A stretch of DNA of 24,298 bases from Eggerthellaceae bacterium. GTDB lineage: Bacteria > Actinomycetota > Coriobacteriia > Coriobacteriales > Eggerthellaceae. Location of the stretch: assembly GCA_003452695.1 (NCBI GenBank), contig DMNP01000319.1, positions 1-24,298 on the forward strand. Direction: 5' to 3'. This document shows positions 184 to 22,725 of this stretch, piece by piece; within the stretch, counting starts at the first letter, position 1, and the number at the start of each line of letters is the position of its first letter. A program made the translations under genes and the position numbers. The notes below the pieces were generated by a model that was given only the letters and a program-made list of their open reading frames with translations, did no database searches and was not told where the DNA came from.

Positions 184-1548
184 ATGCAGATAACACCCGC
201 AGAAGTTGCAGAGACCTTGGCCATGGTGGCCGAACAACACCTGGACATACGCACCATCACGCTCGGCATGAACCTGCGGGGCTGCACGGATGCCGATGTC
301 CACACGGTTGCGCTGAAGGTATACGACCGCATGACCCACGCTGCTTCGCAGCTCGTTCCGACAGCCGAGCAGCTGGAGCGGGAATTCGGTATACCAATCG
401 TGAACAAGCGCATCTCGGTTACCCCCATCGCGGAAGTGTGCGCGGCGGTAACCTCGCACGACCTGAGCCCCATCGCCCAGGCCATGGACCGTGCAGCCAA
501 GGAAGTTGGCGTCGATTTCGTCGGCGGGTTCTCAGCGTTGGTGCACAAAGGCGCTTCGATTGCAGACACCAAGCTTATGGAGTCGATACCCGAAGCCTTG
601 GCAACCACCGACTTCGTCTGCGCTTCGGTGAACGTGGGGTCCACGCGCGCGGGGATAAACATGGACGCCGCCTACAAGATGGCGGGCATCATCAAGCAGG
701 CCGCCGAGCTGACGGCCGACCAACAGTGCATCGGGGCGGGCAAGCTCGTCGTCTTCTGCAACGCCGTTGAGGACAATCCGTTCATGGCGGGCGCCTTCCA
801 CGGTTCGGGCGAGGCGGACGAGGTGGTGAACGTCGGCGTGTCCGGACCCGGCGTTGTGCGCGCCGTGCTTGCCGGCATGCCGAAAGATGCAGACATCGAA
901 ACGATTGCCGAAGCGATAAAGGCCACCGCCTTCAAGATAACCCGCGCGGGCGAGCTTATGGCCCGCGAAGCATCCAAGCGCCTCGGGGTGGTGAAAGGCA
1001 TTCTGGATCTTTCCCTGGCGCCGACCCCCGCGGAAGGCGATTCGGTTGCCGAGATTCTGGAAGCAATCGGCGTGGGCTCCTGCGGCGGCCCGGGAACGAC
1101 AGCGGCGCTGGCCATGCTGAACGACGCCGTGAAGAAGGGTGGCGTCATGGCGTCAAGCTCGGTGGGCGGGCTGTCGGGCGCCTTCATCCCCGTGTCCGAG
1201 GACGCCGGGATGATCCGCGCTGCGGAAGAGGGGGCGCTGTGCCTGGAGAAGCTTGAGGCCATGACCAGCGTGTGCTCGGTGGGCCTGGACATGATAGCCA
1301 TACCCGGCGACACATCCCAAGAGGCGATATTCGGCATAATCGCCGACGAGTGCGCCATCGGCATGATAAACAACAAGACGACCGCCGTGCGGCTTATCCC
1401 CGCCATCGGAAAGACCGTGGGAGATCGCCTGGATTTCGGGGGATTGCTGGGCTACGCCCCGGTCATGCCGGTGAACGGTTATGCGGGAACCGTGTTCGCC
1501 CACCGCGGCGGCCGCATGCCAGCGCCCCTGAACAGCCTGAAGAACTAG
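184..1548 (+). CDS. UPF0210 / DUF711 family protein (PFL-like fold)
   Basis: The 454-residue protein matches the UPF0210 family in length and in its whole N-terminal pattern: [12 protein letters not shown] near residue 20, then [16 protein letters not shown] near residue 68, and a Gly-rich C-terminal half ending in [22 protein letters not shown]. The family is known structurally to resemble pyruvate formate-lyase-type barrels, but no reaction is established. The ATG is preceded by AAGGGA at good spacing. In many bacteria this gene follows a small ACT-domain gene (UPF0237). No such gene fits in the 183 bases visible upstream, and a TATAAT there suggests transcription as a single gene. It ends at a 12-bp hairpin and is convergent with the next gene. 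Confidence 0.93.
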
Positions 1549-1631: not shown

Positions 1632-1658
1632 AAAAAAGCACGTTTGGGGACGTATCCC
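1632..1658 (-). terminator. Possible terminator after the coiled-coil gene
   Basis: On the minus strand a short hairpin, GGGA-TACG-TCCC (UACG tetraloop), overlaps the stop codon region. It is followed nine bases later by a run of six T (A1632-1637 on the plus strand). The stem is short, so the call is tentative. Confidence 0.35.
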
Positions 1659-2803
1659 TAGATGCTGGACATCTCGCTGAGCGTGATGTTGTACCACTTC
1701 AGCCAGTTGGGCGGGCAATAGGTCCGGGCACCCGACATGGTAATCGTGTATCCGTAGCCCTTGGAAAGCCCGCGTGCGTGGGCGTCGATTGCCGCCTCCC
1801 ACGACGGCCACTCCGCAGCGAGCGCCGCGGGGTTCGAATCCGCCGCACCCCAGCCCCAGGCGTTGTGGGGGCGGATGCATATGCTGCCCTTGCCGCTCTC
1901 GATGGTGGAAATGGAAGCCGACCACCGCGGGTCGATGCAGTACTTCCACGCCGATTTCGCGAAGTTCTTTCCCTGTCCGGCAAGCGGCGATCCTTCGAGA
2001 TACGCGTCGAGTCGCGGAGCCCATTCGGCCACGAACTCGTCCTCGGTGGCATGCCAGTTCGCCCCGTCGTCCAGACCGGATGCATCGCCCGTCAGCGTCT
2101 CGGCGGAATCGCTCTCTTCCTTCTCGGAGCTCTTGCTGCTCGATTCCTTGCTATTCTTGCTCGAGCTGGACGTAGACGACACGCTTACGCCGCGCGATGC
2201 CTCGGCCTGGGCCTTGGCTATGCCCTCGCGTTGGCGCAAGGTGCGTATTTCGTACACCGCCTCGAGCGAAGCATTCGCTTCCTGCATCTTCGCCTCGGAT
2301 TCGGCTCGTACCGCCTCCACCTCGGAACGGGCCGCATCCACCCGCTCTTCTAGCTCCTTGCTGCGCTTCACTTCCTCGGCGTTTGCGCGCGTTATGCGGT
2401 CGATGTATTCGGTCTGGGCGATGAATTCGTCCAGCGACTGGGAATCCAGCAGCATGTCGATGGTGGTGTAGTGGCTGCTCTGCTGCTTGTACAAGGCGCG
2501 CGCCGCATCGTCGCTGCGCTCTTGCTGGGCGGGCAGCAGATCCTCGAGCACGTTTGCCCGCTGGGCCAGGCAGAACGCCTTCGCGCTCATCTTCACGCAG
2601 GCCGTGCGCGCTTCGCGGTATTCCGCATCGGCCTTTTCGATGACCGACGCCGCCTCTTCGCCGGCCGAAGCCACCATGTATTCTTCAGCACTGGCGGAAT
2701 TTGCCGGCAGGGTGGCTGCCAGCAGCGCCGCCGTGGCGCAGGCTGGAATCGCGGCGCATACACGCCAGCGCAAGCCGGGAATGATGCTGCAGTTGCGGTT
2801 CAT
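1658..2803 (-). CDS. Secreted coiled-coil protein with lysozyme-like C-terminal domain
   Basis: I place the start at the ATG at 2803 (381 residues) because AAAGGACGAGG precedes it and a signal peptide follows at once: a basic start, a hydrophobic run at residues 15-32 and a likely cleavage after NSASA (39). The frame is open further upstream to 2896 but without a ribosome site. Residues 47-200 form a coiled coil resembling the N-terminal part of PcsB/CwlO-type hydrolases (MLLDSQSLDEFIAQTEYIDRI). A Ser/Glu-rich linker (about 200-250) leads to a C-terminal domain with SISTIESGKG and NAWGWG, as in lysozyme/glucosaminidase-like peptidoglycan hydrolases. Glu302 is the likely catalytic acid. I infer a cell-wall remodelling role outside the membrane. 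Catalytic activity is not certain. Confidence 0.85.
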   Translation of the reverse strand: MNRNCSIIPGLRWRVCAAIPACATAALLAATLPANSASAEEYMVASAGEEAASVIEKADAEYREARTACVKMSAKAFCLAQRANVLEDLLPAQQERSDDAARALYKQQSSHYTTIDMLLDSQSLDEFIAQTEYIDRITRANAEEVKRSKELEERVDAARSEVEAVRAESEAKMQEANASLEAVYEIRTLRQREGIAKAQAEASRGVSVSSTSSSSKNSKESSSKSSEKEESDSAETLTGDASGLDDGANWHATEDEFVAEWAPRLDAYLEGSPLAGQGKNFAKSAWKYCIDPRWSASISTIESGKGSICIRPHNAWGWGAADSNPAALAAEWPSWEAAIDAHARGLSKGYGYTITMSGARTYCPPNWLKWYNITLSEMSSI

Positions 2804-2834
2804 GTGCACCTCGTCCTTTCGAGTGTGGCTTGTC

Positions 2835-2840
2835 ATTATA
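2835..2840 (-). promoter_or_regulatory. -10 box (TATAAT) for the coiled-coil gene
   Basis: A perfect TATAAT on the minus strand lies 31 bases before the ATG at 2803. The -35 position falls in TTTTCT, inside the T-tract of the terminator of the giant gene, so terminator and promoter overlap. No strong -35 is seen. Confidence 0.5.
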
Positions 2841-2854
2841 TCGCGCATCACGTC

Positions 2855-2881
2855 GCAAAGAAAACCCTTCTGCCAAAGGTT
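2855..2881 (-). terminator. Rho-independent terminator of the giant surface gene
   Basis: Minus-strand AACCTT pairs with AAGG-G-TT across a TGGCAG loop (plus 2863-2881), with one bulged G, and is followed by a T-rich tract TTTTCTTT. It lies about 45 bases after the stop of the giant gene. Confidence 0.6.
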
Positions 2882-2924
2882 CAAGAGAACACCCAACTAG
2901 AAGGGTTACCCTGAATTACCGCAC

Positions 2925-5900
2925 CTATTCCTTGCGCTTGCGTCTCGCGACAACGAGCACGATTAACGCTAATACGATGAGGGCGACCGTGAGCGCAATC
3001 GCGGCAACGGGAATTGCGTCGCCGGTCTTTGCCGTATTTGATTTCGCATTCGCGCCACTCGTCGTACTCGCGCCACTCGTCTTCGATTCCTTTGCGGCTT
3101 CCTGTGTCGGAGCAGCTTTCACGACGAACTTGGCAGCGGCGTTGCCGTCGTCGAAAACCGTCGTGACCTCATGGTCGCCTGTGGACAGCGTCTCGAGGAT
3201 GGTCGGTTTCAACGTGAGGATGACACTACCAGACTTGGCATCGTAGCCCGAAGAGGCAACGTCCTTGCCGTCAATTTTCACACCTGTGAAGTGCCTGAAC
3301 GTCGAGGCGTCTTCAAACGTGCGCTTAATCGTGAACGTGAGTCCGTCGCTGCTTCCTTTCGTCCATTCGGCTCCATCGCCAGCAGTGAACCGATAAGCAT
3401 ACGTTGCTGGGATTTCACGCGTTTCGGATTCACCGCAGCGCGAGCATGTGCGCATCTCCAATCCATCAGCAGACTCCGTTGCGGGTTCCTTTTCAATCCA
3501 CTCGCCCCACGCGTGGCCGAGCGGCTTGACGTCGGCCAGGGTCTTCTCCTGCTTGGCGAAGGCCGCGTTCTCGAACGTGGCGGTGTAGGTGGTCTCGCCG
3601 GGCTGCTCGCAGGTCGCCGGCGTGGCCTCCTGCTTGGCGACCTTGCCGTTCTCGAGGCTCGCGACCTCGGTCTCCACCGACTCGCAGCCCTCGCGCGTGC
3701 AACTCCGCTTGGCCGCGACCGAGCTGCCGTCTGCTGCCCACTCGTAGGACGGCTCGCCCCACTCGTGGCCGAGCGGCTCGACGTCGGCGATGGTCTTCTC
3801 CTGCTCGGCGAAGGCCGCGTTCTCGAACGTGGCGGTGTAGGTGGTCTCGCCGGGCTGCTCGCAGGTCGCCGGCTTGGCCTCCTGCTTGGCCACCTTGCCG
3901 TTGGCGACGCTGGCCTCCTCGGCCTCGGACGCGGTGCACCCCTCGCGCGTGCAGGCGCGCTTGGCCGCGACCGAGCTGCCGTCCGCCGCCCACTCGTAGG
4001 ACGGCTCGCCCCACTCGTGGCCGAGCGGCTCGACGTCGGCGAGCGTCTTGGTTTGCTTGGCGAAGGCCGCGTTCTCGAACGTGGCGGTGTAGGTGGTCTC
4101 GCCCTTCTCGGTGCAGGTGGCCGGCGTGGTCTCCTGCTTGGTGACCTTGCCGTTCTCGAGGCTCGCGACCTCGGTCTCGGCGGCCCCGCAGCCCTCGCGG
4201 CCGCATGTGCGCTTGGCCGTCATCGAGCTGCCGTCCGCCGCCCAGTCGTAGGCCGGCTCGCCCCACTCGTGGCCGAGCGCGGGCAGTTCAACCGTCTTCG
4301 TCTGGGGCATGAACCCTTCGTTCTTGAAGAGTTGGGACGCGACAGTCGCCGAGCCCTTCTCGGTGCAGGTGGCCGGCGTCACCACGTTCTTCGTCCCAGT
4401 CGTCGTCTCATCCTCGAAATGCGATAGGTCGCGCTTGCAGACGCGCTTCGCCGTCACCTTGGTGTCGTCCTTGTTCCATGCGTAGGTCGCCCCGTCCCAG
4501 TCGTGGCCGAGGGCGTGAACGGCAACGTCATCCTCATGGACCCATTCGGCGCCGGCGAAGTCCTTGAAGCAGAGGCCGCAGGGGTTGTCGCCTTCCGAGC
4601 ACTTCCAGTAATCGATGTTGCCGTCATCCGTGCAGGTGGCGGCTTTGGCCTTTATATACGCAAAGCCATGGGCATGCGTTTCCTCGGGGATGACGCGCGT
4701 CTGCACATGGGTTGAATCATGGGAGCACTCCCTCGTCATGAGGCCCTGCTCCGTCTCGGTCGCGGGCTTCGTCACTGTCCATGCGCCCCAGCTGTGGCCG
4801 ATGGCATTGACGACGGTGTCCTCCTGCTGGATCTGTTTCGTGCCGGCCTCGTCCGTGAAGCACAGCTCGCAAGGGTCGTCGCCCTCCGAGCACTTCCAAT
4901 ACTCGATGTTGCCGTCGTCCGTGCAGGTGGCGTCCTTCGCATCGACGTGCGCGAGGCCGTGCACGTGCTTCGTCTTGGGAACCTGGCGGTATTCGATATG
5001 GGTGGCGTCGTTGGCGCACGTGCGCTTCTCGGTACCCCATGACGTCTCGGTCGCCTGCTGCGAGGTTTCCCATGCGCCCCAGCTGTGGCCGAGCGCGTGG
5101 ACGACGGTGTCCTCTTGGGGGATCCATTTCGAGCCGGCCTCGTCCGTGAAGCGCTGGCCGCAGGGATCGTCGCCCTCCGAGCACTTCCAATACTCGATGT
5201 TGCCGTCGTCTATGCAGGTGGCATCCTTTGCCTCGACGTGCACGAGGCCGTGCACGTGATCCGTCTTGGGAATGGCCCGGAACTGGAAATGCAGCGGGTT
5301 TCGCTTGCAGAGTCGCAGCCTAACGCCCATTTCCGTCTCAGACGGTTCGTGTGTTGTAGTCCATGCGCCCCAATCGTGGCCGAGCGCGGGAATCTCCTCG
5401 GTTGTCTCGGAGAGGACCTCGGTGCAATCGGAACAGCACTCGACCACATTGCGCGAACCGGCCGTGATGCAGGTTGCGGGTTCGGTTTCGATTGTAAGCT
5501 TGGTCGGGGTGTGCTCATGGCCCTCGATCTTGTTGATGGCGTACGTCACGCCATTGTTGACGCCGTCTTTCTGGATAACGGTCTCGTATCCTTCTATGCT
5601 TTCCTGCGTGATGGTGTACTCGGAGTCGTCGTTACCCATGTCGAAGTAGAACGGCCACTCGCCATCCGAATTCTCGGTGACCGTCGTCGAGTCGATCTTC
5701 ACGCCGTCCTTCAGCAAGTTGACCGTCACGCTATCCGGGCGCTTTTTCGCTGCGTTCTCGTCATCGGCCCAGTACACGAAACCCGTCGGAAGCCTCGATG
5801 CCTTATGGGCGATGTTGAGCACGACGTAACCGTTAACGGACGTAGCATACCCGTCGATCTTGTCTTCCATGATGCGGTAGTAAACGGCGGTGCCGTCCAT

Positions 5901-8900
5901 GTACGCGGGTTGCTCTCCGAAATCGAATTTCCAATCGTCGGACGCGAAGACCTCCTTCGATCCCCATGCCTTGTCGTTGGCGTAAAGGTGCAGTTCCACG
6001 GAATCGGGACGTTGCGCATCTGTGACGTCGCCGTCGTTCCACATGACGGTTCCCGCAACGGTAGTCTTGTCCGCGGGCGTGTGGGTGAGCGTGACAAGGA
6101 AACCCGTAAAGGGCAAGCTGGTTACCGAGCTCGTATACTTCGCTCCCCAATCGCCTTCCATCACGGGCTCGACGGTCTCCACCTTGCCCGGGTAGACATG
6201 CCGCCAGTTGTCATATTTGGTGACCGTGAATTCTTGTGTGTCGTTCACCTTGAGCTTCACCGAATCCGGCTGCAAGCCGTCCTTGTCATGCCCGTCTTTC
6301 CAGACGATCGCGACCGGCGTTCGCTCCCCACTACTCCACTGGGCCGTGAAGGTGACGTCTTCCGTGACAGTGAACGAAGCACCGGGCTGATAGTCGCCGC
6401 CGTCGCTTTGGTCCTTGTCTTTGGTCATCGTCCAGCCCTCGAAAAAGACGCCCGTCGAGCTGGGAACGTCGTAGATGCACTCCGGAATGGTGATCGGCGT
6501 GCCCTTGATGACGGAATAGGTCTTCGTGTCGCTTCCGCTCAGCCCCGACTTCGCGGTGACCGTGCAGTACTCAAGGCCGTCGAAGTAGTTCGAGCCCCAG
6601 ACCAGCTTGCAGTTACGCGGGTTCGCGGCGTCCATGTTCACCAGGCCGAGGTACGTGCCCTCCCGGTTCAGCAAGACGCCGCCCTCGCCGAACATCGCAT
6701 CGAGGACATCGTCTGCGATATCAAGCGGGGTGTCTTGCGGCGGAACCCTGGTGTCGGTGCCGTTCGTTCCCACCGAGTAGTAGTAGTCGATGCGCGTGTC
6801 CAGGTTCGTCGGCAGGTCGCGACCACCGTAATACGCATAGAAATTGGTGAGGTTGTTGATCTTCGCAGCCGCAGCGTCCTTGTAGCTGCCTTCGGGCCTG
6901 TCGACCTCCTTCAGGCCGATGCCGCTGACCAAGCCGCCTATCAGCTCGGCGTCCTCGCTGCTCGCGGATAGCACGATCTTTCCACGGCAATCCTTCAACT
7001 GGGGATACGCGGTGTACTTTTTGAAGAGCACACCGTCTTCCATATACAAATAAGGCTCTCCGGTGGAAGGATTGATCTCCATCGACAGGTCACGCAGGTG
7101 CGCCTGTATCCGCTCCATGCCCTCGTCGTACACGTCATCGACGCTGTCAATCTGAACGCCCATGATGATGGTCTCGGTGGGATGCTCCTTCAGGAACTCC
7201 TTGATCCATCCCAGCGTCGTTTTGAAGGTGAGGAAATCATCGTCGTGGTCCTTGCAGAAATAGGAACCGGCGTTGGGGTCTTTCCCGTGAAGCAGGTAGA
7301 GGCTCTCGCCGTCGTCGCGCTTCTTCACCGGGTAGCCCTGCTTTGCGTAGAACGTGTTCAGGCGGATGTCCAAAGAGCGCACGCCCATGTCGAGCTGCTC
7401 GTCGATATAGGCCGTCTGGCAATTGGCGAACTTCTGGAAGAACTTGGAAACCTCGATTGGCGTGTCCAGGCCACCGAAGAGGCCGCCGCCTATCAACCCG
7501 AGCGGGCCGGCAATGACTTCGCCAAGAATAGAACCGAGAGCAGCCCCTCCCAAACCGGCATATATCGAAAGATTGCCCGTGCTGATGTTCCCCTCGACTT
7601 TGGCCGTGCCGGAGTCGTGCGTGCCGGGCAAGTTGATCTCGTTCAAGCGGCGTTCGCCCGAGATTCCCGCCATCCAATTCTTGCTGTTCAGCGTGTTGTA
7701 GTCGCGCACGACCTGGCTGTTAGTCTCGATGAACGGCTTCTCGTCGATGTCCTTGAGCTTGAGGATCGCCTCGTTGTCTTTTTTGTGGACCACATAGCCT
7801 TCGTTGGAGAAGAAGTAGTCGTAGGGGTCCACGGTGGGGTTCTTGTCCCCGTACCCCTTGGTGAACGGCGTGCCCAGCTCGTCTTCCTGGTACACGCCCA
7901 CCTTGGCGCCCTTCTGCAGGGCAGCGGTGAAATGGATCTTGTTGCCCGCCTTCAGGTAGACATCACTTCCGCCGTTGTTGTCGCTCACCACGACGGCGCC
8001 CTCCATGTTGAGCGCTTTGGCGTGCTGCGACACCCAGATGCCGCCGCCGCCTTCGAATGCGCTGTTGTTGATGATGGTTCCTCCGACAAGGCTTATCGTG
8101 GCCTCGTCGTTGACGTAGGCGCCGCCGCCGAGGCCCTTGGCCTCGTTGTTCGTGATGACGGAACCGGTCACGGTCGCGCTCCCGAAGTGCATCAGCAAGC
8201 CGCCGCCGGAGTGGCCCGCCTTGTTGGAGTCGATGGATGTGTTGTCAATCGCCATCTTGCCATACGAGCAGATGCCGCCGCCATCGTAGGGCGTCTCGTT
8301 GCCGGAGATGGTGCTGCCGACGATGGTCGTATCGCTGTCGCCGTTGGCGTAGACACCGCCGCCTTCGCCCTTGGCGGAGTTTTTGCTAATCGTGCAGTTG
8401 GTGATGGTTGCCTTGCCCTTGTTGTTCACGCCCGCGCCGCCGTCTTCGGTCGCGCGGTTGCCGGAGATGTCCACGCCGGTCAGCGTGATGGTGCCCGCGT
8501 CGTTGTAGATGCCGCCGCAGTCGACGCCCGTGTTGTCCGTGATGGCGCCGCCCGTCATGTTGAACGTCTTGTGCACGTAGACGCCGCCGCCGCGGTAGCC
8601 CGCCTTGTTCCCCGTCACGGCGGTGTTGTTCAGCGTGACCGTGCCGAAGCTGTAGATGCCGCCGCCGTTCTCCGTCGAGTTCCCGGTTATGGTGCAGTCG
8701 GTGAGAGTGAGCTCCTTCGTGCCGTTGTAGATGCCGCCGCCCTCCTCGTCAGCCCGGTTGCCCTTGACCGTGCAGTTCTTGAGCGTGGCCACACCCTTGT
8801 TGTTGATGGCGCCGCCGCCGTAGTCGCTCGCGTTGTTGTCCATCAAGGTGACGTTTTCGAGGTTGATGGTGCCATGCTCGTGGACGTAGATGCCGCCGCC

Positions 8901-11900
8901 GTCGTCGCCCTTGTTCCCGGCGACGAACCCTCCGGTCATGATGAGGGTGCCGTACACGAAGATGCCACCGCCGGACTTGCTTGCGCGGTTGCCGACAATA
9001 GCGCCGCTTTCGATGGTGCAGGTGGAACCCTCGTGGATGTTGATGGCGCCGCCGTGCGCGGCATAGCCACCCGTAATCATGCCCGCGCCAGCGCTGTCCA
9101 TTATGGTAAGCGAGGAGTTGTCGCTCAGCTCGAACACATGGCCGTCGGAATCCGAGTCGTCCAGGTGCCTGTCCAGCTTGTGCCCGCAAAGATCGATGTT
9201 TACGTTCTTGCCTTTCAGGTGGAGGCGGTCGTCATCGTCTGTTGCCGTGATGTCGTTTTGCAAGCCGATCAGCTTCCACTGATTCTCGTCGGCGTTTATT
9301 GCGTTCTGGAGCTCCTTCCAGCTGCTCACCGAGACGTCGGGCGCCAGCCGGATGAGGTAGAGCTCGTCATGCATGACCACGAGCCGGTCGGTTGCCTCGT
9401 TGTAGGTGAACACGCTCAGCGCACGCCCATCGTTGCCGGTTTCCGTAAGGCCGCTTGTGAGTGGGCTGGGCGGATCCTGCGTGGCGACGTCGAGCTTGGC
9501 GCCCTCGCCCAACTCGGACACCACGGTGATCACCGAGCCTGCGCTTACCAGGATGTTCTTGCCCGCAGGCGCGATGTTGCCCGTCACGGAGGGTTTGCCG
9601 CCCACATTCAGCGTGCTGCTGGCCTTGAACCCGATGCCGCCGGCGCTCGACGTGCCCTCGTTGGACGTGATGCTGCCGCCGGTGACGTTGACCGTGCCCA
9701 CCGAGTAGACGCCGCCGCCGTTTTCGGCCTTGTTGCTGTCGATGGAGCCGCCGGTGACGTTCAGCGTGCCGTGCACGTAGACGCCGCCGCCGTTGTCCGC
9801 CTGGTTGCCCGTGACGCGGCCGGCCTCGATGGTGCAGGTGGCGTTCGGCTGCACATTGATGCCGCCGCCGTTTTCCGCATAGCCGCCGGTGATTTTACCG
9901 TCCTTGCCGGCGCTGCTGTCCGTGACGATCAACGTGGCCCCGTCCATGACCTCGATGACGTGGCCGTCCTTGTCGGAGCTGCCCCGGTTGCGGTCGATAG
10001 TGTGGCCGTTCAAATCGATGGTGACGGTCTTCCCCTCGGGGACCTTCAGCTGGTCGTCACTGTCGATGGCCTTCCAGTCCCGGTCGAGTTTGAGCGTGCC
10101 GCCGTCTTCGGTGTCACGTATCTTCTTCTGCAGCTGGGGCCATTCGGATTTGACGATTTCGGCATCGCCTTTCCAGCCTTGAACGATCGAATACCCCGGT
10201 TTGGCGAAGAAGTAGTCGGCGGGGTCGGCGCCTGAGTTATACTTTTGGAAGTCGTAACAAATCAGGCCTACTTCAGGATTGCCGCTTACGCCAATCCACG
10301 ACCCCTCAAGGCTGCCGGCTACGCGGATGGTAGCCATATTGTCAGAGATTCCAACGATATGGACATCGCCGCCGCTGTTGTTCTGCACGATGACTTTGCC
10401 CTGTACGGCCATGAAATCACTTAAATAGATACCACCGACTTCAAGGTCTGCAGAATTGTCCGTGATGGTGGTATTCATGACGAACGGATTTGCCCCTATC
10501 GAGTAAATTGCTCCGCCTCGCTCCACAGCCCGGTTGCCCGTAAACGTGGACTCAAGGACGGTCAACAAACCCGACTCGCAGCCGACGGCACCACCACAGC
10601 TATGTGCAGTGTTGTCGGACACGACACAAGACTCAAGCTTTGTCCTGGTGTCTAGCCCATTAAAGCTGTATACGGCACCACCATCGACCTTAGCCTCGTT
10701 GCCGCGTATCTCGCTGTTGCTTACGCTTAGGGTGGACTCGACGTTCAAAATGGCGCCGCCGCTCCCGTCGGTTGCCTTGTTGTCCTGAATGCGCACGCCA
10801 TCGGCCTGGAATTGGGTTCTCCGCGTAAGGGTGACGGCACCACCTTGCTTTGCCTCGTTGTTCGTCAAGGCGCCACCGGTCATGTCTACACTGCCGCTAA
10901 TAATGAAGATGCCGCCGCCCCCGACACCCTGGTCTTCGAATTCCGATGCGTTTCCTTTGGCGGTATTGCTGCCGATAACCGTATTGCTGATTGTGAGGAT
11001 CTCCCCACTGCTGTGGCAGACCACGCCGCCGCCATAGCCCTCTGTGGCGTTGTCGTCGATTATGCTGTCCGTAATCGACCCATTCGGGATACCGTCGACG
11101 TATATGCCGCCGCCGCCGACCCTGGCCGTGTTCTTCAAAATGGTAAGGCCGCTGAGCAACATCCGGGCGCCACTATGGGCGTTTTCGCTATAGATTCCGC
11201 CACCAGAGATATAGGACTTGTTGTATCTGATTATGCCGCCCGTGGCTTCAAGTTTGTTGGCGCTGTAAATGCCGCCACCACAAGCTGATGCTTCGTTGTA
11301 CGCAAGCTGGCCGCCCCTCATCACAAGCTTGCCGCCGTTGTAGATGCCAGCACCGCAGTTCGTTGCGATATTGTTTTCAATCGACCCACCTTCGAGGTAG
11401 AGCGTAGCCCCCGGGTGGATGTAAATTCCACCACCATCTCCGGTGAACCCGCCAGTAATGGCCCCGGCACCAAGGCTATCCTTGATGGTTATTTCGACAC
11501 TGTCCTCATCACCGTTGTCAAGCTCGAGCACACTGCCATTATCTTGGTCGCAATCCCTGAGGTTGCGATTGATTTTCTTGCCGTTCAAGTCGATGGTGAC
11601 GCTTCTTGTTACCCAAAGTGTTTTGTCTTCGTCTTCTGCGACGATGTCGCCGGAAAGCGCGATCGTTTTGTATTCCTCGTCGTCAAGCGCCGCCTGCAAA
11701 GCTTTCCAGTTGTTCACCTCGATGTCTGCTGGCGTGCGCTTATGGTAGAGCTCTCCATCTTCCTTAATCACCAGCTGATCGGTTCCGCCTGCGTTGTAGC
11801 TGAAGTTGTCGATTGTGCCCTTGGGCGTGGCCGACTTGCCTTCCAGCCCGTACGTTATCGCGTAACTAAGGGTGTTCTTGGTAGCGACGTCCAGCTTGGC

Positions 11901-14180
11901 CGTATCCGCAAGCTTGTCGACGATCGTGATGGCGTTGCCTTCGTTCTCGCCCAGCAGGATGTTCCCTCCCGAGGGGGCGGTGTTGGACACCACGACCGGG
12001 GCGCCCTTCACGTTGAGCGTGGCGCTGCCGCAATGGTGAATGCCTCCGCCTTCCTCGTCTGCCCTGTTAAGGGCTATATTGCAGTCGAACAGGTTGAGCT
12101 TACCCGCATTGAGGAAGATTCCGCCGCCGTCGTCTTTTGCCGTGTTGCTGGTTATCCGCGTGTCGCCACTCACCTCGGTTGTGCCGGAGCCGGCGTAGAT
12201 TCCGGCGCCATTGCTTGCCGTGTTGGCCATTACGAAGGCGCCGGCGACAGTGGCCACGCCAAGCGTATAGATGCCGCCGCCGTCGGAGTCGGCGCTGTTC
12301 CTCTCGATGAAGCCGCCCGTTATGGTCAACGCGCCATCGCTGTAGATGCCGCCGCCGTTCGTTGCCCGGTTCTCGGTAATGAAACCGCCCTCTATGGCGC
12401 AGGTGGCGCCTGGCAGGACGTGGATGCCGCCGCCGGCATAGGAATACCCGCCCGTGATCTGGCCGCTGCCGGCGCTGTCCTTCACGGTGAGCGCACCGTT
12501 CACCTCGATGACCGAGCCACCGTCGACAGCCTCTTTGGCTTTGCCGAGGTTGCGGTCGAGCTTGTGGCCGTTAAGGTCGATGGTGATGGTTTTCCCGCCG
12601 CGAATCTTCAGCGCCGAATTCTCAGGGGCTGCTTTCCAGTCCTTGTCCAACGTGATGGTGGAGCCGTTATCCGCAGCGTCGATCTGCTTTTGCAGGTGCA
12701 CCCAGTCGGACGCGACGACCATGGCCTCGCCATCGTTGTTCGCTAGAACGGAGAAGCCAGGTTGGGCTTCGAAGTACTTTTCGGGATCCTCTCCCGGATT
12801 CTTTTCGTGAAAACCCTTGGTGAACGTGCCGGTGGAATCCTGCAAGACCACGTTCACGTTCGCGCCGTCCGTGAGCGGGTCGGACACGGTAAGCTTCTTG
12901 CCGTCGACCAGGCATACATCATTGGCCTTGTTGTCTGCAACGACGACCTTGCCGGCGATGTTGACGGCCTTGGTTCCACCAGCCACCCAGATGCCGCCGC
13001 CGCCGTTCATGCCCGTGTTCTCCGTGATTGAAACGTCGGTGAGGTTCAGCGTGGCGTCGTTGTTGATGTAGATGCCGCCGCCGTGGGCTTCGGCCCTGTT
13101 CTCATGCAACGTGAGTACCTCTGCGCTGACCGTGCCGTCGTTCACGCGAATCGCGCCGCCAGATTTCGCCGCCTTGTTCCTCTCGAAGATGCAACTTTGC
13201 AATGTGACCTTACCGTAGGAGCGAATCGCGCCGCCGTCCGTATTCGTCTCGTTGTCTGAAATGTTCGTGTTGACAAGTGTGGCGCTGCCGTAGGTGCATA
13301 TGCCGCCACCGCTTTCGGACTTGTTGCCTGTGATAGTGCAGCTATTGAGCGTAATGTTGCCGTCTTCGCCGTTGTAAACGCCGCCGCCCTCGGCGTCCGA
13401 AACGTTATTGCTGATGGTGCAGTTCGTGAGCGTCGCAGTGCCCTTGTTGTTGACGCCCGCGCCGCCGGCGCCGCGCGTGCTGTTGCCCGATATGGTTACG
13501 TCGCTCAGCTTGATGGTGCCGCCGTGGTTGTAGATGCCGCCGCAGTCGCCACCGATGTTGCCAGAGACAGAGCCGCCGGTCATAGTCAGCTCGCCGTAGA
13601 CGAAGATGCCGCCGCCGTTGTACGCCTGGTTGCCGGTGATGGCGCCGGACTCCACGATGAGATGGCCCTCTCCGCCGATGACGATGCCGCCGCCGTTCTT
13701 ATCGTAGCCGCCGGTGATTTTGCCAGTCTGCCCGGTGCTGGAGTCCCTGATCGTGAGCGTGCCCTCGTTCACGTCGAAGACGTGGCCTTTGTTGTCGTCC
13801 TGCGACGTGAGGTTGCGGTTGATGGTGTGGCCGGCCAGGTCGATGGCGAAGCTGACGCCCTCGCGCTTGACCACCAGCGTTTTGTTGTCGGGACCGGCAG
13901 TTATGTCGGCGACCAAGTAAATCGTCTTCCCATCTTCCACGTTGTTGATGGCGGTTTGCAGATCGCCCCAGGTGCCGGCCTCGAGATCGCCTTCGGCTTG
14001 GGCGGAAAGCCCGCCAAATCCATTTTCAGAATTCGAAAGGAGGCCGCTCGCCCTCAAGGAAAAATCACTGGGAGCAGCGTTTCCCGTTTCAGCCATCGCG
14101 CTGAATGGAGCGATAGGGCATAAGCCGAATGCCAGGACGAAAGCAAGCAGTACGTTTGCGGTCTTCTTCATGAGCTTCAT
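2925..14180 (-). CDS. Giant cell-surface protein: beta-helix adhesin with PI-PLC, Cna-B and tandem Cys repeats
   Basis: This is a 3751-residue secreted protein. The ATG at 14180 follows GGAGATCAACT. The ATG at 14219 has no such site. A signal peptide (MKLMKKTANVLLAF to about residue 31) is followed by five beta-helix modules starting at Trp 71, 493, 825, 1347 and 1621. Each module opens with a cap (TIDLNGH, then ITGGY) and continues with many N-x-A-x-x-GGGIY repeats, as in chlamydial Pmp-type right-handed helices. A PI-PLC X domain follows (about 2165-2527; INLPGTHDS with His2188, GVRSLDIR near 2266, LLHG with His2298). Next come an InlB-type repeat (about 2540-2612), three Cna-B-like domains (about 2614-2885), Cys-containing tandem repeats (about 2890-3560), and a C-terminal membrane segment with an RRKRKE tail. 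TAKTG at 3716-3720 sits where LPXTG is expected. Likely role: wall-anchored adhesin or enzyme acting on phosphatidylinositol or GPI lipids. This is inferred from domains only. Confidence 0.92.
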   Translation of the reverse strand: MKLMKKTANVLLAFVLAFGLCPIAPFSAMAETGNAAPSDFSLRASGLLSNSENGFGGLSAQAEGDLEAGTWGDLQTAINNVEDGKTIYLVADITAGPDNKTLVVKREGVSFAIDLAGHTINRNLTSQDDNKGHVFDVNEGTLTIRDSSTGQTGKITGGYDKNGGGIVIGGEGHLIVESGAITGNQAYNGGGIFVYGELTMTGGSVSGNIGGDCGGIYNHGGTIKLSDVTISGNSTRGAGGAGVNNKGTATLTNCTISNNVSDAEGGGVYNGEDGNITLNSCTITGNKSESGGGICTYGSATLVNTNISDNETNTDGGAIRSYGKVTLQSCIFERNKAAKSGGAIRVNDGTVSAEVLTLHENRAEAHGGGIYINNDATLNLTDVSITENTGMNGGGGIWVAGGTKAVNIAGKVVVADNKANDVCLVDGKKLTVSDPLTDGANVNVVLQDSTGTFTKGFHEKNPGEDPEKYFEAQPGFSVLANNDGEAMVVASDWVHLQKQIDAADNGSTITLDKDWKAAPENSALKIRGGKTITIDLNGHKLDRNLGKAKEAVDGGSVIEVNGALTVKDSAGSGQITGGYSYAGGGIHVLPGATCAIEGGFITENRATNGGGIYSDGALTITGGFIERNSADSDGGGIYTLGVATVAGAFVMANTASNGAGIYAGSGTTEVSGDTRITSNTAKDDGGGIFLNAGKLNLFDCNIALNRADEEGGGIHHCGSATLNVKGAPVVVSNTAPSGGNILLGENEGNAITIVDKLADTAKLDVATKNTLSYAITYGLEGKSATPKGTIDNFSYNAGGTDQLVIKEDGELYHKRTPADIEVNNWKALQAALDDEEYKTIALSGDIVAEDEDKTLWVTRSVTIDLNGKKINRNLRDCDQDNGSVLELDNGDEDSVEITIKDSLGAGAITGGFTGDGGGIYIHPGATLYLEGGSIENNIATNCGAGIYNGGKLVMRGGQLAYNEASACGGGIYSANKLEATGGIIRYNKSYISGGGIYSENAHSGARMLLSGLTILKNTARVGGGGIYVDGIPNGSITDSIIDDNATEGYGGGVVCHSSGEILTISNTVIGSNTAKGNASEFEDQGVGGGGIFIISGSVDMTGGALTNNEAKQGGAVTLTRRTQFQADGVRIQDNKATDGSGGAILNVESTLSVSNSEIRGNEAKVDGGAVYSFNGLDTRTKLESCVVSDNTAHSCGGAVGCESGLLTVLESTFTGNRAVERGGAIYSIGANPFVMNTTITDNSADLEVGGIYLSDFMAVQGKVIVQNNSGGDVHIVGISDNMATIRVAGSLEGSWIGVSGNPEVGLICYDFQKYNSGADPADYFFAKPGYSIVQGWKGDAEIVKSEWPQLQKKIRDTEDGGTLKLDRDWKAIDSDDQLKVPEGKTVTIDLNGHTIDRNRGSSDKDGHVIEVMDGATLIVTDSSAGKDGKITGGYAENGGGINVQPNATCTIEAGRVTGNQADNGGGVYVHGTLNVTGGSIDSNKAENGGGVYSVGTVNVTGGSITSNEGTSSAGGIGFKASSTLNVGGKPSVTGNIAPAGKNILVSAGSVITVVSELGEGAKLDVATQDPPSPLTSGLTETGNDGRALSVFTYNEATDRLVVMHDELYLIRLAPDVSVSSWKELQNAINADENQWKLIGLQNDITATDDDDRLHLKGKNVNIDLCGHKLDRHLDDSDSDGHVFELSDNSSLTIMDSAGAGMITGGYAAHGGAINIHEGSTCTIESGAIVGNRASKSGGGIFVYGTLIMTGGFVAGNKGDDGGGIYVHEHGTINLENVTLMDNNASDYGGGAINNKGVATLKNCTVKGNRADEEGGGIYNGTKELTLTDCTITGNSTENGGGIYSFGTVTLNNTAVTGNKAGYRGGGVYVHKTFNMTGGAITDNTGVDCGGIYNDAGTITLTGVDISGNRATEDGGAGVNNKGKATITNCTISKNSAKGEGGGVYANGDSDTTIVGSTISGNETPYDGGGICSYGKMAIDNTSIDSNKAGHSGGGLLMHFGSATVTGSVITNNEAKGLGGGAYVNDEATISLVGGTIINNSAFEGGGGIWVSQHAKALNMEGAVVVSDNNGGSDVYLKAGNKIHFTAALQKGAKVGVYQEDELGTPFTKGYGDKNPTVDPYDYFFSNEGYVVHKKDNEAILKLKDIDEKPFIETNSQVVRDYNTLNSKNWMAGISGERRLNEINLPGTHDSGTAKVEGNISTGNLSIYAGLGGAALGSILGEVIAGPLGLIGGGLFGGLDTPIEVSKFFQKFANCQTAYIDEQLDMGVRSLDIRLNTFYAKQGYPVKKRDDGESLYLLHGKDPNAGSYFCKDHDDDFLTFKTTLGWIKEFLKEHPTETIIMGVQIDSVDDVYDEGMERIQAHLRDLSMEINPSTGEPYLYMEDGVLFKKYTAYPQLKDCRGKIVLSASSEDAELIGGLVSGIGLKEVDRPEGSYKDAAAAKINNLTNFYAYYGGRDLPTNLDTRIDYYYSVGTNGTDTRVPPQDTPLDIADDVLDAMFGEGGVLLNREGTYLGLVNMDAANPRNCKLVWGSNYFDGLEYCTVTAKSGLSGSDTKTYSVIKGTPITIPECIYDVPSSTGVFFEGWTMTKDKDQSDGGDYQPGASFTVTEDVTFTAQWSSGERTPVAIVWKDGHDKDGLQPDSVKLKVNDTQEFTVTKYDNWRHVYPGKVETVEPVMEGDWGAKYTSSVTSLPFTGFLVTLTHTPADKTTVAGTVMWNDGDVTDAQRPDSVELHLYANDKAWGSKEVFASDDWKFDFGEQPAYMDGTAVYYRIMEDKIDGYATSVNGYVVLNIAHKASRLPTGFVYWADDENAAKKRPDSVTVNLLKDGVKIDSTTVTENSDGEWPFYFDMGNDDSEYTITQESIEGYETVIQKDGVNNGVTYAINKIEGHEHTPTKLTIETEPATCITAGSRNVVECCSDCTEVLSETTEEIPALGHDWGAWTTTHEPSETEMGVRLRLCKRNPLHFQFRAIPKTDHVHGLVHVEAKDATCIDDGNIEYWKCSEGDDPCGQRFTDEAGSKWIPQEDTVVHALGHSWGAWETSQQATETSWGTEKRTCANDATHIEYRQVPKTKHVHGLAHVDAKDATCTDDGNIEYWKCSEGDDPCELCFTDEAGTKQIQQEDTVVNAIGHSWGAWTVTKPATETEQGLMTRECSHDSTHVQTRVIPEETHAHGFAYIKAKAATCTDDGNIDYWKCSEGDNPCGLCFKDFAGAEWVHEDDVAVHALGHDWDGATYAWNKDDTKVTAKRVCKRDLSHFEDETTTGTKNVVTPATCTEKGSATVASQLFKNEGFMPQTKTVELPALGHEWGEPAYDWAADGSSMTAKRTCGREGCGAAETEVASLENGKVTKQETTPATCTEKGETTYTATFENAAFAKQTKTLADVEPLGHEWGEPSYEWAADGSSVAAKRACTREGCTASEAEEASVANGKVAKQEAKPATCEQPGETTYTATFENAAFAEQEKTIADVEPLGHEWGEPSYEWAADGSSVAAKRSCTREGCESVETEVASLENGKVAKQEATPATCEQPGETTYTATFENAAFAKQEKTLADVKPLGHAWGEWIEKEPATESADGLEMRTCSRCGESETREIPATYAYRFTAGDGAEWTKGSSDGLTFTIKRTFEDASTFRHFTGVKIDGKDVASSGYDAKSGSVILTLKPTILETLSTGDHEVTTVFDDGNAAAKFVVKAAPTQEAAKESKTSGASTTSGANAKSNTAKTGDAIPVAAIALTVALIVLALIVLVVARRKRKE
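3505..4260 (-). repeat. Three tandem 252-bp units (84 aa) in the giant gene
   Basis: Units 3505-3756, 3757-4008 and 4009-4260 have exactly the same length and nearly the same sequence. Each encodes LGHEWGEPSYEWAADGSS, a CxREGC pair, NGKV, PATC and TYTATFENAAFA. They form part of the stalk just before the wall anchor. Near-identical DNA allows unequal recombination, so unit number may differ between strains. Confidence 0.9.
4503..5375 (-). repeat. Three tandem 291-bp units (97 aa) in the giant gene
   Basis: The anchor word GTGGCCG recurs at 4503, 4794, 5085 and 5376, giving an exact 291-bp period. Each unit encodes H-(V/A)-HG, KxATCxDDGNIxYWKCSEGD, an NPC or DPC motif, LGHxWGAW and a closing R-x-C. 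Four or five cysteines per unit outside the cell suggest disulfides or metal binding. An 81-residue shorter relative (4261-4502) joins this array to the 84-residue array. Confidence 0.88.
6600..7690 (-). other. PI-PLC X catalytic domain within the giant gene
   Basis: The encoded segment has the two histidines of bacterial phosphatidylinositol phospholipase C in their family contexts: LPGTHDS (His2188) and YLLHG (His2298). The GVRSLDIR strand and ETIIMGVQID also match. Bacterial enzymes of this family cleave phosphatidylinositol, and some release GPI-anchored proteins. Here the histidines are 110 residues apart because of a Gly-rich hydrophobic insert (about 2207-2240). Confidence 0.82.
7691..13972 (-). 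repeat. Beta-helix region: five modules of GGGI-type repeats
   Basis: About 2090 residues consist of strands of roughly 20-25 residues carrying N-x-A-x-x-GGGI(Y/F/W). Module starts by nucleotide are 13970, 12704, 11708, 10142 and 9320. Every module begins with W-x-x-LQ-x-x-I, a TIDLNGH or VNIDLCGH strand and an IT-GG(Y/F) turn. Modules 1, 2, 3 and 5 contain the longest helices, and module 4 is short. Modules 1 and 5 share runs such as TGGxVxGN and NNKGxATLxNCT, pointing to internal duplication. Confidence 0.85.
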
Positions 14181-14233
14181 AGTTGATCTCCGTTCGAAAC
14201 AGCAACGCAAACACATCAAAGACGCAATATGCC

Positions 14234-14551: not shown

Positions 14552-15112
14552 CTAGCGCAGCTTTGCGCGGCGTTGTCTCCAGTCGGGCATGACGCGGGTC
14601 ATCAGCTCGTGGAAATCGCTGCCGTGACCGGGAACGAGCAGGTGGCAGAGCTCGTGGACCACCACGTATTCCAGGCATTCGGGGGGATACAGCGCCAAGC
14701 GGACGTTAATGCAGATGCGCCCAGTCTGCGGTTGGCAGCTGCCCCAGCGGCTCTTCATGTTGCGGTAGGCCAACGTGCCGGCCTTCACGCCCAAGATGGG
14801 CTCCCATGCCGCCACGAGCGCCGGCACGCAAGCCTGCACGACCTCCCGCCAGGCGCTGACCTCCGCCGGCGATGCGGCCTCGGCCTGGGCCATGGGCGAG
14901 CTCAGCGTTCGCCGAACGCCTTCTTCTATCCAGGCGCGGCGACTGCGCACGAAACGCTCGACGTCGCGCAGGGGCGTGCCGCGCGGGACGGACACCTCGA
15001 CGTGCGCATCGGCACCGGTCACTCGCATGTTCATGCGCCGGATTCCCTTTTCGACCACCCATACTTCCAGGTCGTCGACGAACACGAGGTGCGAGCTATA
15101 CACCTTGGGCAT
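14552..15112 (-). CDS. YgjP-type (DUF45) zinc metallopeptidase
   Basis: The 186-residue protein has the family signature of YgjP/DUF45 predicted metal-dependent hydrolases: RWGSCQPQTGRICINVRL, then VVHELCHLL with HExxH at His153-Glu154-His157, and His163 in GHGSDFHELM as probable third zinc ligand. The family is widespread and related to SprT-like peptidases. Its substrate is unknown, and it is expected to be cytoplasmic. I chose the ATG at 15112. A TTG directly before it (15115) is an equally possible start. AAGGGGGG just upstream serves as ribosome site and lies inside rsmI. The 17-base overlap with rsmI indicates translational coupling. Confidence 0.88.
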   Translation of the reverse strand: MPKVYSSHLVFVDDLEVWVVEKGIRRMNMRVTGADAHVEVSVPRGTPLRDVERFVRSRRAWIEEGVRRTLSSPMAQAEAASPAEVSAWREVVQACVPALVAAWEPILGVKAGTLAYRNMKSRWGSCQPQTGRICINVRLALYPPECLEYVVVHELCHLLVPGHGSDFHELMTRVMPDWRQRRAKLR

Positions 15113-15980
15113 CAAGCCCCCCTTCGCGCTGCTTTGCGGTCATCGCCAGCTCGTAGGCCTCGTTGCGCGCGATGCCGAACTCGACGGCCAGCTTCTTTGC
15201 GACCTCCTTCGGGCGCAGACCCCCCTCTAGCAGCTCGATGGCGCGCGCGGCCGCATCGCCCCGCGCCGCTTCGCCGTCTGCCTGGCACTCGGCCTCGTTG
15301 GGGCCGTCTATCACGATGACGATCTCGCCCTTCACCGTTGGACGCTGCTCGAAGACGGCCAGCACGTCTGCGGCGGGGCCGCGCACCACCTCTTCGTGAA
15401 CTTTGGTCAGCTCGCGGCACACGGCAAGCTCGCGCAAGGGAAGCGCAGACGCGATGGAACGCAGCGCGCTCGTCAGGCGATGCGGGCTTTCGTAGAAGAC
15501 GAGCGCGGCCTGAAGCAGCTTCAACTGAGCGAGCAGCTGCGCTCGGGCCGCCTCCTTGCGGGGGAAGAAACCGCCGAAGTAGAACGCCGGCTGCACGCAG
15601 CCGCTCGCCACAAAAGCCGTGGCAACCGCCGTGGGGCCGGGAAGCACTTCGACTGGGGCGCCGGCATCGCGGGCGGCGCGCACCAGGCGCAGGCCGGGGT
15701 CGGACACGCCGGGCATGCCCGCATCGGTGCAGTAGGCCACGACCTGGCCTGCAAGGACGCGGGCCACGATGTCGGACGCACGCGCCGCGAGCACGTTCTC
15801 GTCCAAACGCTCCATGCGCACGCCCTCGATGCCAAGCGCGGCGAGCAGCCGCCCGGTCACCCGCGTGTCCTCCGCGCATACGACATCTGCCCCGCGCAGG
15901 GCGTCTATCGCGCGCGCGGGCATGTCGCCGAGGTTGCCGATGGGCGTGGGGCACACGACCAGCTTTCCCTGTTCAGGCAA
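15096..15980 (-). CDS. rsmI: 16S rRNA (cytidine-1402-2'-O)-methyltransferase RsmI
   Basis: The 294-residue protein carries all RsmI landmarks in order: PTPIGNLGD (residues 11-19), CAEDTR, YCTDAGMPGVSDPG, LPGPTAV, GGFFPRK, YESPHR and ELTKVHEE. Tetrapyrrole-methylase-fold enzymes of this type use S-adenosylmethionine to methylate the ribose of C1402 in the 16S rRNA decoding centre. The start is TTG at 15980, preceded by AGAGGAG at good spacing. No better ATG lies nearby. The 106 bases to the upstream activase gene hold no clear terminator, so these genes may be co-transcribed. The end overlaps the ygjP-type gene. Confidence 0.95.
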   Translation of the reverse strand: MPEQGKLVVCPTPIGNLGDMPARAIDALRGADVVCAEDTRVTGRLLAALGIEGVRMERLDENVLAARASDIVARVLAGQVVAYCTDAGMPGVSDPGLRLVRAARDAGAPVEVLPGPTAVATAFVASGCVQPAFYFGGFFPRKEAARAQLLAQLKLLQAALVFYESPHRLTSALRSIASALPLRELAVCRELTKVHEEVVRGPAADVLAVFEQRPTVKGEIVIVIDGPNEAECQADGEAARGDAAARAIELLEGGLRPKEVAKKLAVEFGIARNEAYELAMTAKQREGGLDAQGV

Positions 15981-19000: not shown

Positions 19001-20709
19001 AAGGTGCCGCCCTGCACGATAACGTGTTCGCCCACATCGTGCGGATCGCGAATCTTTATAACTTTGAACAGCGCGTTCTTAATGACCGAAATCGCAAGGC
19101 CGGCGGCGATGTCGCCGACGGTCGCACCCTCTTTCTGGGCTTGCTTCACGCGGCTGTTCATGAAGACGGTGCAGCGGCTTCCCAGGTCGACGGGTTGTTG
19201 CGCTTCTATGGCCGTCTTAGCGAACTCGGAGACGTCCAGCCCCAGGCCGCTCGCAAAGCTTTCGATGAAGCTTCCACACCCGGAACTGCAGGCCTCGTTC
19301 AGCATGATGTGGTCGATAACCCCGTCCTTCACGCGCAGGCACTTCATGTCCTGGCCGCCGATGTCGAGGATGAACTCCACATTGGGAAGCATTTCCCGCG
19401 CACCGCGCAGGTGCGCCACCGTTTCTATCTCGCCCGAATCCACCTGCAACGCCTGCAGCAGAAGGCCTTCGCCGTATCCCGTTACCGTCGAATGGGCAAT
19501 GGTCACGAGCGGACGGCCATCGGCATCTGCGGGCAGGTCGTCGTAGAGCGCGGCGAGCGCCGTGCGCGCGCATCCGAGCACATCGCCCTTGTTGGACACG
19601 TAGTGGGACCACAGGATGTCGCCGTCGCGGCCGATGAGGACCGCCTTGAACGTGGTCGACCCGGCGTCAATTCCCAAATAGGCCTCGCCGCGATAGGTTG
19701 CGAGGTCGCCGCGCGCAACGCGCTCGGCCGCATGGCGCTCGACGAACCGGGCATGCTCTTCCTCGCTGGCAAACAACGGCGCCAATCGCACGACCTCGGA
19801 GCCCTGCAAATCTCCCAGGCTATGCAGTCGGGCTATCACGTCGTTCAGGCGCTCGGGGCGTATGCCCTCCACTTCGCCGCCCGCCACTGCACAGCCGCTT
19901 GCCACGAACAGGTGGGCGTTTTCCGGAACGATGATGTGCTCTTCGTCCAGGTCGAGGGTTTCATAGAAGCGCTTGCGCAGCTCCGGCAGGTACTGCAGCG
20001 GGCCGCCGAGGAACGCGATATGGCCGCGTATCGGGCGGCCGCACGCCAATCCGCTGATGGTCTGCGTAACAACCGATTGGAAGATGCTCGCGGCGATGTC
20101 CTCTTTGCGCGCGCCCTCGTTCAGCAGCGGTTGCACGTCGGTTTTCGCGAACACCCCGCAACGGCTGGCTATGGGATAGATGGTCTCGTGGTTGGCCGCC
20201 AGCTGGTTCAGGCCACCTGCATCGGTGTTCAGCAAAGCCGCCATCTGGTCGATGAAGGCCCCCGTTCCACCCGCGCACGTGCCGTTCATGCGTTGCTCTA
20301 TCGAACGCCCGAAATAGATGATCTTCGCATCTTCTCCGCCAAGCTCTATGGCCACGTCGGTCTTGGGTATGAAGGTTTCCACGGCGGTCTTGCTCGCGAT
20401 TACCTCCTGCACGAATTCCACTCCAAGCCATTTCGCCAACAGCAGGCCGCCCGACCCCGTGATGGCAATGGTCATTTCCCGGTCGCCGTATTCGGGCGCG
20501 GCCGCTTCGAGCACCTGGGCGATGGTCGCGCGCACATCCGAATGGTGCCGCTGGTAGATGGACCAGACAACGTTGTCGTTGCGGTCGAGTATGGCCAGCT
20601 TCACCGTGGTCGAACCCACGTCGATACCGGCCCTCAGATCCGTCTTGCGCGATACTGCCACCTCGTTGCCCGACGGTATCTCGACATAGTCCCTGCCTTT
20701 GTACTTCAT
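16087..20709 (-). CDS. Large 2-hydroxyacyl-CoA dehydratase activase-like fusion (two BadF/HgdC ATPases, DUF2229, HgdB-like part)
   Basis: The 1540-residue protein contains two actin-fold ATPases of the HgdC/BadF type. The first has [11 protein letters not shown] at residues 27-37, [11 protein letters not shown] and SRCGVF. The second begins near 344 with [11 protein letters not shown], then [18 protein letters not shown] and SRCTVF. Each keeps both cysteines that hold the shared [4Fe-4S] cluster in HgdC. A Cys-rich stretch follows ([10 protein letters not shown], near 638), then a DUF2229-type region ([15 protein letters not shown], near 711; SESVCYPAK) and a C-terminal part recalling dehydratase subunits ([23 protein letters not shown] near 1341). 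Such fusions are common in anaerobic Clostridia and Coriobacteriia, but the substrate is unknown. The ATG at 20709 follows GAGGAG. No dehydratase genes adjoin it. Confidence 0.9.
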
Positions 20710-20758
20710 ACTGCGATACTCCTCGCCGCATTTCTTCCCGTTTGTTCTTGAAACTCGT

Positions 20759-20764
20759 ATTGTA
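20759..20764 (-). promoter_or_regulatory. Possible -10 box (TACAAT) for the activase fusion gene
   Basis: TACAAT on the minus strand lies 49 bases before the ATG, inside a short palindrome CGTA-TTG-TACG. The matching -35 is poor (CCCGTA). This is only a suggestion. Confidence 0.3.
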
Positions 20765-20849
20765 CGAAACCGATGCGGGAATACGGGCGTCATCCGCCAC
20801 CCGTCACCCATTCGCTATGTTGGCGCGTCTTCAGAGGCTCGTTCCGGCT

Positions 20850-22688: not shown

Positions 22689-22725
22689 ATGTTTCCCCTT
22701 TGCTCTCCAGGCGCGTTCGCCTGCC

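Follow-up and report, generated by a model that had tools for sequence, protein, structure and literature searches.

Background

The described bacterial phosphatidylinositol-specific phospholipases C (PI-PLC, Pfam family PF00388) of Bacillus cereus and B. thuringiensis, Staphylococcus aureus and Listeria monocytogenes are secreted enzymes. PMC9572076 gives His32, Asp33, Arg69, His82 and Asp274 as key catalytic residues and describes, for the B. thuringiensis enzyme, a helix B with Trp47 that goes into membranes. The residues nearest to myo-inositol in structure 1PTG are, according to PMC4934513, Asp198, Arg163, His32, Arg69, Lys115, Trp178, Asp33, Ser234, Asp180 and Tyr200. We report here the analysis of a stretch of 24,298 nucleotides from an Eggerthellaceae bacterium (assembly GCA_003452695.1, contig DMNP01000319.1; the whole stretch is hereafter called the window), in which a domain of this kind is instead embedded in a 3751-residue, probably surface-displayed protein. 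Judged by its sequence, it is a true PI-PLC barrel of the bacterial type and catalytically intact. It differs from the secreted enzymes by the absence of Lys115, Arg163 and the QDxY motif, by 60 residues instead of 12 at the place of helix B, and by a score below the Pfam cut-off. The retention of the catalytic set together with the loss of the inositol contacts in an embedded family, and the replacement of helix B in a clade of 18 proteins, are the new elements. Among the matches listed in literature searches on this architecture or role, none dealt with it by title or abstract opening, most subscription papers lying outside their coverage.

Results and discussion

A PI-PLC fold within a giant protein

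A single unbroken frame occupies positions 2925-14219 of the minus strand. Translation probably begins at the ATG at 14180, which follows GGAGATCAACT (Shine-Dalgarno-like GGAG), and gives 3751 residues. That the frame is no one-off artefact of assembly follows from P0002, a database protein of equal length whose 9 differences among the 3751 positions all fall within 3493-3520. The features of the gene are as follows.

2925..14180 (-), gene of the giant, probably surface-displayed protein, ATG at 14180, 3751 amino acids
14094..14180 (-), signal peptide-like start, residues ~1-29, ending ...FSAMA/ET, read from the translation and not by a predictor
7761..14093 (-), right-handed beta-helix arm, residues ~30-2140, five modules, each opened by W-x-x-LQ
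6567..7742 (-), PI-PLC-fold domain, residues 2147-2538, from profile and fold comparison
7614..7619 (-), catalytic His2188-Asp2189 (B. cereus His32-Asp33), from alignment
7428..7607 (-), 60-residue segment 2192-2251, which contains the hydrophobic, Gly-rich insert and stands where the B. cereus enzyme has interfacial helix B
7362..7370 (-), Asp2271-Ile-Arg2273 (B. cereus Asp67 and Arg69), from alignment
7287..7289 (-), catalytic His2298 (B. cereus His82), from alignment
7152..7154 (-), Gln2343, replacing inositol-contacting Lys115, from alignment
6960..6962 (-), Ser2407, replacing inositol-contacting Arg163, from alignment
6630..6632 (-), Asp2517 (B. cereus Asp274), from alignment
6339..6536 (-), weak InlB/Listeria-Bacteroides-type repeat (PF09479, 16.4 bits, cut-off 27)
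5541..6308 (-), three Cna-B-like domains, residues ~2625-2880 (PF05738, 96.4 bits in 2 stretches)
3381..5525 (-), Cys/LGHxW repeat stalk; P0002 has seven LGHx[WY] motifs C-terminal to its PI-PLC-fold domain
2928..3038 (-), sorting-signal-like C-terminus, NTAKTGD, transmembrane segment (TM) and RRKRKE, read from the translation

A preliminary description of this DNA, made from the sequence, had proposed an intact-looking PI-PLC X domain set between a beta-helix arm and a stalk. The motifs that it named in the 3751-residue protein (His2188, GVRSLDIR at 2266-2273 and His2298) were located, and its domain order is borne out by Pfam matches and by the order of motifs, GGG[IVLA] before the domain and Cna-B-like after it. 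The arm scores 135.1 bits with PF13229, 33.4 with PF20585 and 33.1 with PF02415; PF13229 and PF02415 are both above cut-off and mark it as a right-handed beta-helix of the Chlamydia Pmp-like adhesin type. Unlike those adhesins, the protein has a Gram-positive-type tail and no autotransporter end, and its enzyme domain follows the arm. In P0002, a regular expression counts 27 motifs of the GGG[IVLA] type ahead of the domain and 0 behind it, and the Cna-B-like region holds three W-x-D...P-x-S motifs; the Pfam search of the window protein reported no family over the Cys/LGHxW stalk.

The PF00388 search that the preliminary description had set beforehand gave a divided answer. The Pfam cut-off of 23.1 bits was missed (14.3 bits for the whole protein, 19.9 for the domain alone), whereas profile and fold evidence place the domain in the PI-PLC barrel fold. 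The profile of alignment A3, built without free-standing relatives, provides an independent test of identity, and the structure model was computed from alignment A4 (38 rows), whose 26 free-standing relatives make it lean towards the known fold. Near relatives do pass the cut-off in the genome search (G162:C4, 25.3 bits; G001, 24.2), and 16 of the 19 rows of alignment A2 match PF00388 at E <= 1. We consider that the profile and fold evidence outweighs the sub-cut-off score. A first model, from alignment A1 (12 rows; predicted local distance difference test, pLDDT, 58.0; predicted template modelling score, pTM, 0.60), was set aside for the A4 model, and a motif arising by chance or artefact was ruled out by the family search, profile and fold evidence.

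Catalytic residues are kept and known inositol contacts lost

Relatives were sought among proteins whose length is 0.55-1.75 times that of the window protein; the 1754 candidates with the most shared words were scored, on the domain alone. At least 47 database proteins were recovered at E <= 1e-3, one of them the window's own protein cluster, with identity to the window domain down to 29%. Regular expressions place beta-helix motifs of the GGG[IVLA] type ahead of the domain in 47/47 and after it in 0/47, and the Cna-B-like motif after it in 34/47 and before it in 0/47. For comparison, 26 free-standing rows were chosen by us from two protein searches: one with the domain as query, reaching only proteins of ~215-686 amino acids (7 matches), and one with the A3 profile (at least 58 proteins among 7999 scored candidates, 48 of which carry PF00388 in precomputed annotation).

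Residues were paired by the HMMER alignment of A4 to B. cereus chain 1gym and by A4 profile positions, giving His2188=His32, Asp2189=Asp33, Arg2273=Arg69, His2298=His82 and Asp2517=Asp274, so that all five catalytic residues are present in the window domain. Gln2343=Lys115 and Ser2407=Arg163 were counted by hand along ungapped stretches, the place of 163 being confirmed by the R163K mutant chain 7ptd in the alignment. The embedded domains keep His32 in 46/47, with Asn for this first catalytic His in P0039, and Asp33, Arg69, His82 and Asp274 each in 47/47. Lys115 is found in 1/47, Arg163 in 1/47 (5 gapped) and QDxY (Asp198/Tyr200) in 0/47, the latter judged by motif in a region that aligns poorly; in 11 of the 47, Lys115 is replaced by Arg. 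The free-standing relatives keep both sets: His32 in 26, Asp33 in 24, Arg69 in 26, His82 in 26 and Asp274 in 24 (2 gaps), Lys115 in 25, Arg163 in 23 (1 gap) and QDxY in 23. These counts in the 47 embedded and 26 free-standing domains show that the embedded family has retained its catalytic residues but not the known inositol grip. The window domain itself has neither the Lys115/Arg163 pair nor the QDxY of the B. cereus-type enzyme.

Seven A4 rows (P0049, P0050 and P0056-P0060) were set aside from the 26 as fragments or intermediates; Lys115 occurs in one of them (P0058) and Arg163 in none, four being gapped at 163, and the intermediate P0056 has QDxY but neither Lys115 nor Arg163. P0052 is included in the 26, yet is grouped apart in the tree.

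A long hydrophobic segment in place of helix B

Where the aligned B. cereus enzyme has 12 residues (36-47, helix B), the window domain has 60 (2192-2251), lying between its catalytic His-Asp pair and a conserved Gln2255. A tree of 80 rows, computed by a quick method without bootstrap, puts the 47 embedded domains, together with L014 and L015 from frames of 3314 and 3387 amino acids, on one side of a branch supported at 98 by the Shimodaira-Hasegawa-like approximate likelihood ratio test (SH-aLRT), with 22 free-standing rows outside. Within this side, P0002-P0019 form the window clade, one branch of 18 (SH-aLRT 99, insert columns kept in the tree), whose members have 37-68 residues of variable sequence at the helix-B place. 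In 16 of these 18 proteins, against 5 of the remaining 29, no 19-mer of the ectodomain is more hydrophobic than the one in the rim loops; in P0026 the hydrophobic stretch is in the next loop instead. The window clade thus has a long, mostly hydrophobic segment in place of the membrane-binding helix B.

Hosts and distribution

Named hosts are Olsenella intestinalis, an Eggerthellaceae bacterium, a Lachnospiraceae bacterium, a sheep Atopobiaceae metagenome-assembled genome and two uncultured Coriobacteriaceae (RUG12923 and RUG10972, where RUG presumably stands for rumen genomes). Among 396 genomes from the class of O. intestinalis, the domain is matched at 1e-5 in 13, which makes its occurrence patchy; eight of these are at least as strong as 1e-40, and the five weaker matches belong to sister or distant kinds. 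PF00388 was found in 34 of the 396, above cut-off in 33. Four genomes (G002, G162, G290 and G341) carry PI-PLC-like domains of embedded and/or sister kinds on two different contigs each.

Surface display and tethered relatives

Surface display, which the preliminary description had proposed in the form of a wall-anchored arm, is probable from sequence features. The protein has a signal-peptide-like start and ends in NTAKTGD-TM-RRKRKE, where the LP of an LPXTG-type signal is absent and NTAKTGD stands instead; the tail of the O. intestinalis protein is MPATGD. A TGD tail is recognised by regular expression in 20/47 relatives, the rest ending otherwise or being cut off, and the sortase family PF04203 is above cut-off in all six relatives' genomes searched.

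Tethered PI-PLC-like domains in the class extend beyond the window family, which makes tethering itself less surprising. A simpler precedent, from a named gut species, is the Collinsella aerofaciens protein WP_320678096.1 (829 amino acids, L042:5287-7776, NZ_OY725717.1), named "phosphatidylinositol-specific phospholipase C" in RefSeq, which joins a canonical-type domain to an anchor-like tail. It resembles the window protein in belonging to the Coriobacteriia and in its C-terminal DTGD-TM tail behind a PI-PLC domain, which is 24.9% identical across 69% of the query. It differs in being short, with PF00388 (36.3 bits) as its only Pfam family and no beta-helix or Cna-B, and in keeping QDKY and Arg at 163 (hand count). 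In 12 of the 34 PF00388 genomes, the match lies within a frame of 832-842 amino acids. A further 1137-amino-acid frame (L040:2341-5751) has a ricin-B-type lectin domain before its PI-PLC-X match and an STGD-TM tail; its PF00388 score depends on the tool at the same place (26.2 vs 21.5 bits).

Closer in the tree are three giant proteins, L037, L038 and L039 (frames of 2459, 2020 and 2005 amino acids, with 19, 15 and 13 List_Bact stretches), whose domains L021, L018 and L024, respectively, lie in the two sister branches nearest to the window family. They share TGD/TRD-type tails with it, but their PI-PLC-like domain is near the N-terminus and two of the three lack catalytic residues; in L037, Pfam reports no PF00388 and the domain was found by phmmer. 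One sister branch (SH-aLRT 100) groups L018, L019, L022 and L024, all in surface-protein frames of Coriobacteriia. Among the five catalytic residues, L022 keeps only Arg69, L024 none, and L018 His32 and Asp274; the motif of L019 is PGTYHSG. These four domains are likely pseudoenzymes, as read from their residues. In the other sister branch, L016 and L021 keep the catalytic five.

Proposed role and alternative explanations

From the computed fold, catalytic residues, architecture, inositol-contact loss, and place and hydropathy of the insert, we infer an activity, a membrane engagement, a substrate and a target cell. The best reading, which seems to us evenly poised, is a phosphodiesterase of the PI-PLC type that is held at the surface, engages a membrane and has changed in its recognition of the head group. 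The barrel would be the fixed middle part of a giant surface-protein family with sortase-type tails, the beta-helix arm reaching out or binding and the Cna-B/Cys-repeat stalk holding the assembly on the wall, with the enzyme between them. Because the two His, the Arg and the two Asp are retained, the enzyme would be expected to cleave a phosphodiester beside a free hydroxyl via a cyclic phosphate, as is usual. The enzyme of the window clade probably dips into the membrane facing the bacterium, since a hydrophobic segment replaces interfacial helix B. As the inositol-holding residues are gone across the family, the head group recognised is more probably that of a modified inositol glycolipid or some other polyol phospholipid than that of plain phosphatidylinositol (PI). 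It is a good deal more tentative, and on balance unlikely, that these proteins form a new class of surface-held phosphodiesterases in gut Coriobacteriia and other anaerobes, in which a PI-PLC barrel on an adhesin arm, with its chemistry kept, its inositol grip exchanged for a different head-group specificity and a membrane-dipping insert gained, would dock on a glycolipid of the facing cell and cut it.

Several observations weigh against this altered-recognition reading. The window's own domain misses the PF00388 cut-off. Position 163 is occupied by Glu in the Listeria enzyme, and position 115 by Ser in the Collinsella protein (hand counts in both cases), and therefore neither the loss of Lys115 nor that of Arg163 alone excludes PI. 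The loss of Asp198/Tyr200 is the absence of a motif only, in a poorly aligned region, and the 26 free-standing rows are mostly near kin (14 in one branch) and not independent tests. As for the insert, P0015 and P0019 fail the rim-loop hydropathy test and P0009 is a near tie, the window insert exceeds the next ectodomain stretch by a small margin (hydropathy 1.60 vs 1.48), and it is modelled at low confidence (pLDDT <50 for domain residues 75-88). The sister clade with lost catalytic residues also points to a non-catalytic use of the fold nearby.

The most probable alternative is a canonical enzyme, putatively held at the host cell surface, that would cleave PI or glycosylphosphatidylinositol (GPI) and grip inositol by other, family-specific residues. 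Its fold and catalytic set match those of true PI-PLCs, the Arg at position 115 in 11/47 suggests that a positive contact is sometimes kept, and the Collinsella protein combines an anchor-like tail with Arg at 163 and QDKY. We nevertheless judge it doubtful, given Lys115 and Arg163 in 1/47 each and QDxY in 0/47. The PI/GPI-cleaving activity advanced in the preliminary description is weakened by the replacement across the family of residues that 23-25 of the 26 free-standing relatives keep, and a host-directed PI/GPI role appears somewhat disfavoured.

Catalysis could also be incidental or lost, the barrel serving as a lectin-like or membrane-docking part of the adhesin, as the pseudoenzyme-like Coriobacteriia branch of L018, L019, L022 and L024 and the Asn of P0039 might suggest; this is improbable, because the conservation of the catalytic residues in 46-47 of 47 domains, despite identity down to 29%, would be unexpected under selection for binding only. 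Least probable is an action on bacterial material (phosphodiester glycolipids or teichoic-acid-like polymers of neighbours or of the cell itself), which the few named hosts, gut or uncultured bacteria, and the non-inositol polyol head groups left possible by the lost contacts would allow, but the hydrophobic insert suggests a bilayer and not a wall polymer.

A fold known from secreted virulence factors is thus a conserved, built-in part of at least 47 giant, probably surface-displayed database proteins, in which conserved traits (catalytic residues and architecture) can be set apart from non-conserved ones (inositol contacts). The proposal of GPI cleavage at the host surface is sharpened into the question of which head group the clade recognises. 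If a host or protozoal glycolipid were the target, gut commensals would have a direct route to remodel the facing cell surface.

Genomic context

A mobile-element origin was rejected on plasmid, phage and viral-contig searches: the 11.5-kb gene region had no megablast match in the plasmid collection, the protein search with the domain returned one plasmid record (Collinsella) and one unannotated phage record (26.9% identity over 46%), and no relative was found in the viral contigs searched. The neighbours of the giant gene in the window are ordinary genes:

184-1548 (+), DUF711 gene
1658-2896 (-), PcsB-coiled-coil-like protein, just downstream of the giant gene (24 bits, cut-off 27)
14552-15115 (-), YgjP-like gene
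16087-20811 (-), acyl-CoA dehydratase activase
20901-21641 (-), TlyA-type (rRNA) methyltransferase, above the cut-off of subfamily model TIGR00478 and below that of the equivalog
21642-22727 (-), aspartate-semialdehyde dehydrogenase

The C-terminal part of the 1658-2896 product resembles, by reading and with no Pfam match, a cell-wall hydrolase. In O. intestinalis, the one relative examined, the giant gene has a nucleotidyltransferase-hexapeptide gene on one side and an RmlD gene on the other, a setting unlike that of the window.
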